Under the pieces are notes generated by a model that saw nothing but the letters and a program-made list of their open reading frames with translations, had not been told where the DNA came from and made no database searches. The position numbers and the translations under genes are program-made. Shown here one piece after another: positions 32,794 through 64,000 of a stretch of 64,000 bases of DNA (the first letter of the stretch is position 1; every line of letters begins with the position of its first letter). Location: positions 16,033 to 80,032 of the IMG/VR virus record IMGVR_UViG_3300003177_000020. One strand, given 5' to 3'. Source of the stretch: a virus.

Positions 32794-33087
32794 TCAAACG
32801 TCAAACTCTCCATCCAGCAGGTGCGGGAATAACCCACGCAGACTTGACTCACATCTTCTGTTCATGGTGTCCAAAATATTTTTTGCACTGCTATCCGACA
32901 CATCAACTTCATTTTCTGATATTTCCTTGAAACGGTCTATTACACACACAGCATATTCTCTGAGTGCATCGTATAGCTTGCTTGTGGTATTTGCCTGTTG
33001 TGAATAAATCAGCATCGCAGCAGCAAGTTCTCTGGATGTTTTTTTCTTTAAATCTTCTTCAAAAAACCCAAGAACATCTTTGACCAA
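32794..33087 (-). CDS. Unknown helical protein, TTG start (97 aa)
   Basis: The frame has no ATG near its beginning; TTG at 33087 is the best candidate, and an internal ATG at 33015 is the alternative. It overlaps the upstream gene by 40 bases. The product is helical. Function unknown. Confidence 0.5.
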   Translation of the reverse strand: MVKDVLGFFEEDLKKKTSRELAAAMLIYSQQANTTSKLYDALREYAVCVIDRFKEISENEVDVSDSSAKNILDTMNRRCESSLRGLFPHLLDGEFDV

Positions 33088-59263: not shown

Positions 59264-61621
59264 ATGGTACAGCGCAGTTTTGGCGCAATACAAAGCGCAG
59301 GTGTTCGATTGACTGAGAAACCCGCACAACCATCTATCGTGGCGTCTGCTTTTGGTACAGTGGCAAAGGTGGGCGTTCTGGAGCGTGGTGCTATCGGTAA
59401 GCTCATCAAAGTTGCAGGTAAGAAAAGCTTGAAGCTGAAAACTGGCAGCTACGTGCCAGACCATTTTTTGCCTGATGGCGCGGATGATCATTATGCACAT
59501 TCCCGTGGTACAGAGCAGATGTTTTTGTACCGTGTGACTGATGGTAGTGAAAAAGAATCTTTTTTGAAGTTGTATGACCGCAAAAATCCACGCAATTTGG
59601 TCGTCGGTTTGAAGGCAAAAAATGGCGGTGGCTGGGGTGGCAGAAAGCAAACATGGGTTGCGGATGTTGCTGTTGCTGATGTTGCGGAGACAACAATTTC
59701 GTTACCCGCAGCCTTGCATCCAATTGAAAAAAATCAATTTGAAGGTGGAAAAGTCTATCTTCCTGATGCGAATGCTGGATCTGGAGCTTCTTTTGAAATT
59801 CTTAGCAATGCAAAAAGTGACGGGCTTACTAAGACAACATTGACTTTGAAGGCAGATTCAAAAGCTGCAACGGCTCTTGGTACTCCTGTGGATACAACTC
59901 CTGAAGTGATCATCGAAGTGCCATCGCGTGATGGTTACAATCAAGAAAAACACTTGGCTGTTGAAGTTCGAGATGGCGCACTGAATCCATCTACAGAATG
60001 GGGCTTGTTTGTATATTTGAATGGTGATCTTGTTCGTGAATATCCAGATCTTTCTAGCGATCCAAATGCTGCAAACTATTTTGTGGATGTGATCAATGAT
60101 GATGGGGGTAACGAATACATCAAAGCACAGGATTATTGGGTTGGTGCTATTACTGCTGATGTTCGTCCTGCAAATCATTTTGGTGCTGTTGATGCTTCCA
60201 AAATTACAGCCACTGTTTTGGATATCGGCACAGCATTGGTTCTTGTGGATGGATCTTTGGCAGGTGCAAATACTATCGCATCTTTTACATTTGGTGCGAA
60301 TGTGATCGAAGATACAATCACTGCGACGTACAATGCTGGTGCTGCAGCATGGGATATTGCTTCGACTGAGTACATGAAAACGCATCAGTTTGCGCAAGCG
60401 ACTGGTGGTGTGCCTTATGCAGCCGATACGGATCGCACAATTGGATTTACGATCACTGAAAATGCTCCGCAAAATGGTGAGAAATTCACACTTAAAGTCA
60501 TCCCACTGGCATCTGGTGAGGCTGTTCGTGGTCGTGTTTATTTGCCAGATGTCACTGCTGCATCCAAAAGTGGTTATGAGATCAAATCAAATACACCTTC
60601 CACTGCAACGATTGTTTCTGGCGATTTGACGCAGGGTGGTACACTTGTGGGATCGATCAAGTATCGTTTGGAATACAAGCAGCAATTTGTGCATGGTTAC
60701 GATGGGATTGCCAGTTTATCTACAAATGATTTTGTGGCTGCATTTGATGTCGCAAACTCTCCATTCAACGATCTCGAAAATCAGGGTGTTGGTTTGGTCA
60801 AATTTTCGGTTGAAGGCATTACGTCTTACAGCGGTGCTGTCGATCCAACACAGGTTCAAAAAGCTGGCATTGCATATTGTGAAGCCAAGAATCACATGTT
60901 CCGAGTTGAAATACCAAACACGATTACAGATGAATTTGCAGCCAAAGATTATGTGCAGAACACAATCGGAAAATCCAATTATTGCAAAGTTGCATTTCCA
61001 TCGTGGGGTACAGTTTCAGATCCCGTTCGAAAGGGCAGAAAAAAAGATATTTCTCTTCTTGGTGCTTTTTCTGGGTTGGAATCCAGATCGGCTCGTGATT
61101 ATCTCGGATACCACAAGGTTGCAGCAGGTGAGAACACTATTCTTTCTCGTGTGATTGCACTTCCAACTGGTGATCGTGTGATCGATGGTGAAATTACAAA
61201 TCCTGCTGGTTTGCAGCGTGTGATCAAAAAGAAAGGAAACTTTGTGTTGTGGGGTGCGAGAATCCCTGCCATTGATAATTCTTTCCGATTTGTTCAACAC
61301 CGCGAACAGTTGTCGTATTACATGCATGTTTTGCAGGAAAATTTTGATTTCATTATTTTTGCAATCAACGACAGTGCTGATGATCCATCTTTGATTGCAG
61401 CATTCAACAATTTCTTTTTACCTGAATGGCGACAAAAACGTGCATTGCAAGGCAGCACTTTCAAGGAAGCAATGGTCTTGAAGATCGACGCGGAAAACAA
61501 TGATGCTGTCACTCGTGCGAATGGTGATAAGGTTGCAGATTTGGAATTGTGGCTTGCTGATACAGTTGAGCGTTTTATTATCAATATCAGCAAAAAAGGT
61601 GTTACCGCAAACATCGCATAA
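59264..61621 (+). CDS. Contractile tail sheath protein
   Basis: The 785-residue protein begins with an extended strand region, has a large variable middle and ends with the conserved sheath C-terminal part: RDYLGYHKVAAGENTILSR, then WGARIPAIDNSFRFVQHRE and VADLELWLADTVERFIINI. It is longer than many sheaths because of two inserted beta-rich segments (about residues 130-210 and 305-440), which share KVYLPD or RVYLPD. It establishes a myovirus-type tail. Confidence 0.85.
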   Translation: MVQRSFGAIQSAGVRLTEKPAQPSIVASAFGTVAKVGVLERGAIGKLIKVAGKKSLKLKTGSYVPDHFLPDGADDHYAHSRGTEQMFLYRVTDGSEKESFLKLYDRKNPRNLVVGLKAKNGGGWGGRKQTWVADVAVADVAETTISLPAALHPIEKNQFEGGKVYLPDANAGSGASFEILSNAKSDGLTKTTLTLKADSKAATALGTPVDTTPEVIIEVPSRDGYNQEKHLAVEVRDGALNPSTEWGLFVYLNGDLVREYPDLSSDPNAANYFVDVINDDGGNEYIKAQDYWVGAITADVRPANHFGAVDASKITATVLDIGTALVLVDGSLAGANTIASFTFGANVIEDTITATYNAGAAAWDIASTEYMKTHQFAQATGGVPYAADTDRTIGFTITENAPQNGEKFTLKVIPLASGEAVRGRVYLPDVTAASKSGYEIKSNTPSTATIVSGDLTQGGTLVGSIKYRLEYKQQFVHGYDGIASLSTNDFVAAFDVANSPFNDLENQGVGLVKFSVEGITSYSGAVDPTQVQKAGIAYCEAKNHMFRVEIPNTITDEFAAKDYVQNTIGKSNYCKVAFPSWGTVSDPVRKGRKKDISLLGAFSGLESRSARDYLGYHKVAAGENTILSRVIALPTGDRVIDGEITNPAGLQRVIKKKGNFVLWGARIPAIDNSFRFVQHREQLSYYMHVLQENFDFIIFAINDSADDPSLIAAFNNFFLPEWRQKRALQGSTFKEAMVLKIDAENNDAVTRANGDKVADLELWLADTVERFIINISKKGVTANIA

Positions 61622-61670: not shown

Positions 61671-62117
61671 ATGGGCATCAAAGGCGTATTTCTTCCAGAT
61701 CACGGGCAGCTGAATAAGTATCGTCTGGATATTTTGGGGTTGCCACCATTGACTCCAATTTCCATTACTGGCTTGGAACGTGAGCTTGAAACCACAGAAC
61801 TTCCAGATAAAACAGTGGCAACAGGTGGACGGCAAATGCCTGTTGAATTTGAAATGAAACTTCCTGCACACCATGATCTCGAAATTGCAGCAATGGATTC
61901 GTGGCAGGATGAGTGTGATGAACCTGTTTCACCTACACATAAGAAAATTGCTACTTTGAGTATTTTAGCTCAGAGTGGTCGTGTGGTAAGATCTTACATG
62001 ATCGAAGGTTGCTTTCCTTCAAAGTTGGGGCTTCCTGATTTGGAGTTGAGCAATGAAGGTGAAATGGCAGAACACACATACACTATGAAAGGTGATGGGA
62101 TGCACCGCATTTCTTAA
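61671..62117 (+). CDS. Tail tube protein
   Basis: The 148-residue protein directly follows the sheath. It has SITGLERELETTELPDKTVATGG and EFEMKLPAHHD, typical of contractile-tail tube proteins, and a YMIEGCFPSKLGLPDL strand pair. It forms the inner tube. Confidence 0.8.
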   Translation: MGIKGVFLPDHGQLNKYRLDILGLPPLTPISITGLERELETTELPDKTVATGGRQMPVEFEMKLPAHHDLEIAAMDSWQDECDEPVSPTHKKIATLSILAQSGRVVRSYMIEGCFPSKLGLPDLELSNEGEMAEHTYTMKGDGMHRIS

Positions 62118-62188: not shown

Positions 62189-63016
62189 ATGAAAAAAACA
62201 ACCGTTGGTGAACTTGGTTGCAATCTTCCTATTGGTTTGATGCGTGATGGGCAGTTACTCAAACGCTTTGAATTGCAACCATTCAAGACCAAAACAGAGC
62301 GTATGTTGGGCGCGTGGCAAAAATCAAATGCGCACTTAGATGAAGGGCAGATTTTGACATCGAAAGTGAGCAAGTTGCTGTCCATGCTTGTGATCAACGT
62401 CGATGCGGAAGGTATGCCAAAAGATCCATTACAGGCAGAAAGATCTATGTATTCTTGGTGGGCTGATGATGTGATGTACGCTTACGTCGTGGCGCGTATT
62501 CAGGCTCTTGGAAATGAGTTTGTGTGGTCTTTTTCATGTAATAAACATGGATGTAAATATTCAACAGATTCAGCAGTTTTTGATTTGAATACACTTGAAG
62601 TTTCTTGTTTGGAAACACCAGATGAGTTACGGCAAAGTATCAATTTGAAGCATCCGTTTATGCTTTCTTCTGGTGAGAAATTGCATCGTGTTACAGTTTC
62701 ACCCTTGCGATGGTCTTCGTTTACTCGTGGCGGTGCAATGCTTGATGCTGCCGTTGGTGCTGGTGATTTTTGGACATTCAGAGATAGCATTTGCGGGATC
62801 AATGGACGCGAAGGAAGTGTTGTTCTTACAGATGACGATATCGATGAATTTTCATTCGAAGATTACAGGCGCATTGAAAAGATCACACAAGATAATTCCG
62901 CAGGGATCTCGCTGCAAACTCATGCCGATTGTCCTGATTGTGGAACCACGAATTATAATATTTTGAACTGGGGATATGATGATTTTTTCGGATCATCTTC
63001 CCTTTTGGTGAAATAG
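62189..63016 (+). CDS. Tail assembly chaperone, frame-0 product, zinc-ribbon-like
   Basis: The 275-residue protein lies between tube and tape measure, the standard place of tail chaperones. It has Cys/His pairs (CNKHGC and CPDC) that may bind zinc. Its end overlaps a -1 frameshift site (TTTTTTC at 62983-62989), after which a second reading frame continues to 63177. The start follows AAAGGGTATTTAC. Confidence 0.75.
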   Translation: MKKTTVGELGCNLPIGLMRDGQLLKRFELQPFKTKTERMLGAWQKSNAHLDEGQILTSKVSKLLSMLVINVDAEGMPKDPLQAERSMYSWWADDVMYAYVVARIQALGNEFVWSFSCNKHGCKYSTDSAVFDLNTLEVSCLETPDELRQSINLKHPFMLSSGEKLHRVTVSPLRWSSFTRGGAMLDAAVGAGDFWTFRDSICGINGREGSVVLTDDDIDEFSFEDYRRIEKITQDNSAGISLQTHADCPDCGTTNYNILNWGYDDFFGSSSLLVK

Positions 63017-63177
63017 ACGATTTGCTTGAAGAAGCGTATTATCTATCCAAGGTGGGAAGATTTTCTTTTGTTGATGTGTTGGAAATGACCAGTTACGAAC
63101 GGCATAAGATGCTTGATCTTTGTATTGAAAGTGTGAAGCAAGAAAACGACGCATACAAAAAAGCAGGATTGCTTTAG
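62189..63177 (+). CDS. Tail assembly chaperone, -1 frameshift fusion product
   Basis: A -1 slip at TTTTTTC joins the upstream product to RIIFPFGEIDDLLEEAYYLS and SYERHKMLDLCIE, giving a fusion of about 329 residues that ends 9 bases before the tape measure gene. The -1 frame has no ATG or GTG and no ribosome site of its own. The added part (E-I-D-L-E-E-YYLS and M-S-YER) looks like the T segment of tail chaperones and T4-type gp26/51 pairs. Confidence 0.7.
62983..62989 (+). other. Programmed -1 frameshift site T TTT TTC
   Basis: The frame-0 codons are GAT-TTT-TTC, so T-TTT-TTC is the canonical X-XXY-YYZ heptamer. It lies 27 bases before the frame-0 stop (63014-63016), which leaves room for a short stimulatory structure. 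Confidence 0.75.
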
Positions 63178-63186
63178 GAGCAGGTT

Positions 63187-63987
63187 GTGGCTCGGATTGG
63201 ATTGAAAGCTACATTATCTTTTGTTGCAGGTGCAGCAGTTTCAAATATCAAAAGAACTGCGACTGCCTTTTCAAAATTGCAACAACAAGCAGAACAAGTG
63301 AAACGCGCCACACAACAAGTAAATCGTGGCATGAGTGATCTTGGGCGTGTTGGTCTTGGTGTGGTTGCTGGTACAGGACTGGCAGTTCGATCTTTTGCTG
63401 CATTTGAGGGTGCTTTTGCAGGTGTGCGATCTATTTTAGCAACAGGTGCTAAAAAAGAGTTTCCACAGTTGAAACAAAAAGCTGAGGAATTAGGAGCCAC
63501 AACAAGTTTTACGGCAACACAAGCAGCATCCGCAATGGAAAGTTTGGCGCGTGCAGGATTGAATGCAAATCAGATTATGAAAGCGATCCCGTCAGTGTTA
63601 AGTGCTGCTGCTGCTGAGGGTATCAGCTTGTCTACAGCTGCGGATATTGCATCCAAAAATATGAAAGCCTTTGGTCTAACGACAAAGGATATTCCACAGA
63701 TTGTTGATACGCTGGCATTTGTATCAAAGAATACCAACTCTTCTATGGTGGGATTGCAAGAAGGTTTGAAGCTTGTAGGTTCAAGTGCTAAGGCGTTGAA
63801 GATAAGTGTTTTTTCTACAACAAAAGCTCTTGGTATTTTGAATGATGTCGGGTTGAATGGATCGCTTGCAGGTACAGCGTTGAATCAAGTGTTGGTTAAG
63901 ATGTCTAAGGCAACAAAAAATGGGGTGATCCCTATTATGTCTGGTCTTTCAGCACGCTTGGAAAAAAATGCTGATGGACTGCGTTGA
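63187..63987 (+). CDS. Tape measure protein, N-terminal part, GTG start, early stop
   Basis: The 266 residues have the tape-measure N-terminal pattern: a coiled-coil start (KLQQQAEQVKRATQQVNRG), KEFPQLKQKAEELGATTSFTA and LARAGLNANQI (TP901-type core). It starts at GTG after TAGGAG. The frame stops at 63985, only 800 bases in, while these proteins are usually well over 600 residues; the region just before the stop reads as if one base were missing. The window ends 13 bases later, so the rest cannot be seen. Confidence 0.75.
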   Translation: MARIGLKATLSFVAGAAVSNIKRTATAFSKLQQQAEQVKRATQQVNRGMSDLGRVGLGVVAGTGLAVRSFAAFEGAFAGVRSILATGAKKEFPQLKQKAEELGATTSFTATQAASAMESLARAGLNANQIMKAIPSVLSAAAAEGISLSTAADIASKNMKAFGLTTKDIPQIVDTLAFVSKNTNSSMVGLQEGLKLVGSSAKALKISVFSTTKALGILNDVGLNGSLAGTALNQVLVKMSKATKNGVIPIMSGLSARLEKNADGLR

Positions 63988-64000
63988 AAACGATCAAAGA

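Follow-up and report, generated by a model that had tools for sequence, protein, structure and literature searches.

A single gene of an uncultured phage with a contractile tail very probably encodes two tail-assembly chaperones, a short one and a long one that would arise by a −1 slip at the heptamer T_TTT_TTC. Programmed −1 frameshifting, as judged from sequence, is well supported, because the heptamer, the −1 product, a Shine-Dalgarno (SD)-like element and a downstream stem-loop are conserved in 27 distinct sequences, in agreement with the original prediction of a −1 frameshift in the tail chaperone gene before the tape measure. The gene lies in the window, the whole stretch of 64,000 nucleotides analysed here, which forms the right end of an incomplete 80,032-base virus record that stops inside the tape-measure gene. 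Features are given in window coordinates.

59264–61621, plus strand: tail sheath (phrog_17610, 1.4e-9; tblastn matches to annotated cyanophage sheaths)
61671–62117, plus strand: tail tube, T4 gp19-like (PF06841, 5e-6; phrog_45, 1e-4)
62189–63016, plus strand: zero-frame open reading frame (ORF) of the short chaperone (TAC-N), T4 gp26-like, 275 aa, ATG start
62970–62974, plus strand: SD-like GGGGA, putative stimulator, 8 nt upstream of the heptamer
62983–62989, plus strand: slippery heptamer T_TTT_TTC, in frame, X_XXY_YYZ phase
62989–63177, plus strand: predicted −1 frame extension, 62 aa plus stop (TAG 63175–63177)
62995–63061, plus strand: predicted downstream stem-loop, 5-nt spacer after the heptamer
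63176–63180, plus strand: AGGAG, ribosome site of the tape measure, read directly, overlapping the stop codon of the extension
63187–63987, plus strand: tape measure protein, N-terminal part (PF10145, 1.6e-30; phrog_1533, 3e-50)

The chaperone gene is placed between the tail tube and the tape measure, and since the tube, of T4 gp19 type, and a sheath are encoded upstream of it, the tail is contractile. Its 3' end reads ...GAT GAT TTT TTC GGA TCA TCT TCC CTT TTG GTG AAA TAG, with the heptamer 11 codons before the end of the ORF. The heptamer had been predicted to stand in the right frame, and the −1 frame to run open to 63177, ending 9 bases before the tape measure; both points were borne out by the X_XXY_YYZ phase of 62983–62989, the TAG at 63175–63177 and the GTG start of the tape measure at 63187. 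The residues that the −1 frame would add after the slip, giving the predicted long form, are RIIFPFGEIDDLLEEAYYLSKVGRFSFVDVLEMTSYERHKMLDLCIESVKQENDAYKKAGLL. Across the 18,450 codon positions of the window ORFs, 111 X_XXY_YYZ heptamers stand in frame, and only two of these places combine a stop within 30 codons with a −1 frame open for at least 50 codons, namely the chaperone gene and a minus-strand place at about 33066. Only 13 bases short of the contig end, a TGA closes the tape-measure ORF (window 63985–64000), whereas the tape measures of relatives have 700–890 residues; faulty assembly of this end is the most likely cause.

As a single-sequence query, the 275-aa protein found no match in IMG/VR or cultured phages, and two of its relatives, used in the same way, found none in cultured phages; relatives were therefore reached through the tail sheath and then by profile. 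The sheath search yielded three IMG/VR relatives, each with an identical heptamer and a −1 extension before the tape measure, and a profile built from the four short proteins yielded 31 loci, the three sheath-found contigs included. A scan of bacterial genomes added one locus only, also with the heptamer, in an 11-kb contig of a Bdellovibrio sp. metagenome-assembled genome (PEZR01000091.1, locus L044), which is possibly a hint at the host or a phage contig wrongly binned. In the annotated sheath neighbourhoods of Nostoc phage N1, S-TIM5 and a Leptolyngbya phage, the chaperone gene was not seen by annotation. The comparison set thus comprises the window and 32 related loci, 27 of the 33 sequences being distinct, and the short proteins of the relatives share 20–32% identity with that of the window.

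An in-frame T_TTT_TTY stands at the same Phe-Phe position in all 33 loci (27 distinct), 8–21 codons before the zero-frame stop, and is followed in every one of them by a conserved −1 extension of 59–79 residues. The conservation that the original prediction proposed as a check was found throughout, and of the outcomes it named as refuting we saw none among the 33 loci, neither a loss of the heptamer nor a second frame with its own conserved start codon and ribosome site. The search patterns mostly required Phe-Phe but not its codons, so that loci lacking Phe-Phe would be missed, with the choice of codons unaffected. That choice is strongly constrained: under their own codon usage, 26 distinct sequences would all keep NNT TTT ahead of the second Phe with p ~1e-25, a figure that treats the sequences as independent and whose weight, not direction, is lowered by shared ancestry. 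At the level of sequence, we consider the conservation of the heptamer in the relatives decisive and well beyond chance. It also bears on the idea that the two frames were once one ORF, broken here by a sequencing error or by decay of a fusion gene. A fused single-ORF form does exist in the family (T4 gp51 joins PF12322 to a C-terminal domain), but the frames break at the identical base in all 33 loci (27 distinct sequences), on independent contigs, which makes this explanation scarcely credible.

Conservation of the extension, with an R-x-F-F-P motif, begins at the slip itself, and three helices are predicted in it, forming a T-like domain that resembles the C-terminus of gp51. The window extension matches phrog_634, 'baseplate hub assembly catalyst', weakly (E 0.062); among the relatives, three of 26 extensions reach E<=0.01 (best 1.1e-5). 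Profile A4 matches T4 gp51 weakly, and a comparison of the extension alone with solved structures gave no significant match. The −1 frame of the window had been described as having neither a start nor a ribosome site; TTG, GTG and ATG codons do occur in it, the first being TTG 63022, but none of them has an SD-like sequence. TTG 63022 lies just past the stop of the first ORF (63014–63016), and coupled starts are common in phages, so that the second frame could be read as an independent gene with its own TTG or GTG start, its translation coupled to the stop of the first. We regard this as very unlikely: an SD is seldom seen ahead of the start codons in the extension, those conserved in position lie inside the domain, at about codon 33, and conservation starts at the slip, upstream of any start. 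An independent gene would, moreover, explain neither the heptamer nor the SD-like element nor the stem.

Two putative stimulators flank the slip site. Upstream, GGAG or GGGG occurs between a conserved Trp codon and the slip in 23 of the 27 sequences, about 8–9 nt before the heptamer, and pairing with the anti-SD tail of 16S rRNA averages −5.4 kcal/mol at this site (27 sequences) against −1.0 (sd 2.5) in gene bodies. Serine codons at the SD-like site are AGY in a ratio of 16:4, compared with 131:281 in gene bodies (Fisher p 2e-5). Downstream, window positions 62990–63075 fold with a minimum free energy of −29 kcal/mol (z −4.3), which none of 200 dinucleotide shuffles equalled. The 27 sequences as a group also fold more strongly at this place (average z −1.93) than 324 control stretches do (−0.27; p 2e-7). 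Exchanging downstream sequences between loci weakens the pairing of the 5' arm (permutation p 5e-5), and stem arms change together between loci (TTCATCCC/GGGATGAA, TTCGTCCC/GGGACGAG, TTCTTCCC/GGGAAGAA and TTCCTCCC/GGGAGGAG); the long stem of the window itself draws on a 3' arm far downstream and does not rank with the best ones in the permutation test. The codons of the SD-like element and those in the 5' arm of the stem specify conserved residues as well, a point against the frameshift reading; the SD-like element and the stem-loop are nevertheless both conserved more than coding requires.

These elements also speak to whether the long product might come from RNA polymerase slipping on the T run, which would alter the mRNA, instead of from ribosomal slippage. 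Most loci have a run of T6, but four (L007, L017, L030 and L044) have T7–T8, as such slippage might favour; T6 is short for it, however, 23 of 26 heptamers end in TTC, and an SD-like element and a downstream stem are stimulators of ribosomes, so that we give polymerase slippage little credence.

Under ribosomal −1 frameshifting, most ribosomes would end at 63016 and release the short, gp26-like chaperone. A smaller share of them, held up by the stem-loop 5 nt downstream and by SD-like pairing 8 nt upstream, would slip back one base at T_TTT_TTC, and their product, 329 residues long, would carry a helical domain at its C-terminus. As in lambda G/GT, the short form may coat the tape measure protein and the extra domain of the long form may recruit tail-tube subunits; the ratio of short to long would matter, and both forms would leave before the virion is completed. 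What the sequences show is the anatomy of the site, its conservation, membership in a family and predicted folds; slippage itself, its efficiency and this division of labour are inferred, the last by analogy.

The short protein carries two cysteine-pair zinc-ribbon motifs and matches PF12322 (Pfam T4_baseplate) at E 0.031, below the cut-off, with a likewise weak match to phrog_150. The assignment is firmer in its relatives, 21 of 26 alignable short proteins matching PF12322 at E<=0.01 (best 6e-15) and seven of 12 related records exceeding the curated cut-off; Phage_TAC_7 (PF10109) gave a weak match in three of 26. Both T4 gp26 and gp51 belong to PF12322, and the C-terminal part of gp51 also matches phrog_634. 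The link to T4 rests on these Pfam and PHROG families, hhalign comparisons of the clade profiles with single T4 sequences being weak. AlphaFold2 models were confident (pLDDT 86.5 for the short protein and 86.9 for a second model). The best solved structures for the short-protein model were the HK97 tail chaperone 2ob9 (Z 5.8, rmsd 4.9, 100 aligned) and YqbN 3klu (Z 5.6, rmsd 3.6, 90 aligned); since a VIA Z score under 8 is no strong evidence when taken alone, we regard these predicted-fold matches as supportive, not strong. In BFVD, the short protein matched gp26-type hub proteins, that of SP-15 included, and unnamed phage proteins, down to 8e-15, and profile A3 found no significant match among solved structures by sequence. 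In the parts at hand, each related record holds a single A3-type gene, so that no duplicate supplies the long form there; in the phage of the window, a separate long-form gene may lie elsewhere, because the contig ends in the tape-measure gene. Given the PF12322 and phrog_634 matches, the fold matches and the single copy per related record, the window gene is most likely a tail assembly chaperone of the T4 gp26/gp51 type, with two forms made from one gene.

The original prediction had likened the gene to lambda G/GT, a comparison that holds for function. Like gpG and gpGT, the two products would be a major short chaperone and a minor long one, the latter made by −1 slippage, and the gene immediately precedes the tape measure. 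The family, on the other hand, is that of T4 gp26/gp51 (PF12322), the tail is contractile, unlike the non-contractile tail of lambda, and sequence kinship with lambda was not shown, no lambda G/T family appearing among the Pfam and PHROG matches listed for the window protein and its relatives. The slippery heptamer of lambda differs from T_TTT_TTC. P2 E/E' and Mu 41 (Phage_TAC_7, PF10109, the family matched weakly above) are likewise chaperones of contractile tails with a frameshifted long form; the P2 slip site is T-rich, and the P2 E/E' and Mu 41 proteins are much smaller and have no zinc ribbons.

With T4, the window gene shares a short protein in PF12322, zinc-ribbon cysteines and a contractile tail, and its predicted long form would carry a C-terminal domain that resembles the one of gp51, if weakly by profile. 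The difference is that the T4 short and long proteins come from separate, divergently oriented genes, 26 and 51, whereas the clade of the window would use a single gene, one copy per record, with a −1 slip; two separate genes are a feature of T4 and do not define the PF12322 domain family. At the end of T4 gene 26, which reads GAG TTC TTT GAG, we found no heptamer that could be a relic slip site. Tail assembly chaperones of T4-like phages, proposed to be made without frameshifting, are reported by Vladimirov, Gautam and Davidson 2022 (PMID 34826709; see also PMC10885494), and the two genes meant there are, we infer, T4 26 and 51. Atkins and colleagues (PMC5009743) name T4 as an exception to conserved G-T frameshifting. 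In Vandenendeviridae and Andersonviridae, the chaperone uses a −1 slip at GTTTTT (PMC12846349), which resembles our case: a poly-T −1 site, kept throughout a family, in the chaperone gene that precedes the tape measure of a myovirus. These phages belong to another family.

In cultured relatives, found with the PF12322-positive members, the short gene is followed by the same C-terminal domain, but in the +1 (or −2) frame. These are Bacillus phage SP-15 (profile E 1e-10), the jumbo phage record LR756508 (profile E 1e-5) and the Streptomyces phages LuckySocke and GiJojo, whose matches are weak (E 0.007–0.01); the loci concerned are L041 3581–3901, L040 3785–4039, L043 3635–3934 and L042 3530–3829. 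The junction of the two Streptomyces phages, GAA CTC TGA, is common to both, and that of SP-15 reads GAA TTT TTT CAC. In published annotation of these cultured phages, the domain appears as a small separate hypothetical gene or not at all. We tentatively suggest that in PF12322 a single frameshifted gene may be the older state, that T4 26 and 51 could stem from a duplication, and that the direction of the slip may have changed in SP-15, LuckySocke, GiJojo and the jumbo phage; if true, the family shows three ways to one protein ratio (−1, +1/−2 and two genes).

The mechanism itself is already known, and since frameshifted and T4-type chaperones are both in the literature (PMC5009743 and PMID 34826709), the finding falls within known territory. 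What is new is a well-conserved member in the T4 gp26/gp51 family, and the interest lies mainly in the T4 link. The phages of this uncultured clade have contractile tails and one chaperone gene of the T4 type, with a candidate slip cassette that is complete and conserved. They thereby support the view proposed for T4, with gp26 as the short and gp51 as the long chaperone, and offer a comparison for phages that exchange frameshifting for gene duplication. A gene of this build will probably be split or cut short by automatic annotation.

The minus-strand place (about 33069–32795) holds a second in-frame T_TTT_TTG at 33066, five codons before the stop of an ORF of about 100 aa. Its −1 frame is open for 90 codons with no ATG before it, and the arrangement could be a second frameshift or a pair of overlapping genes with a TTG start.
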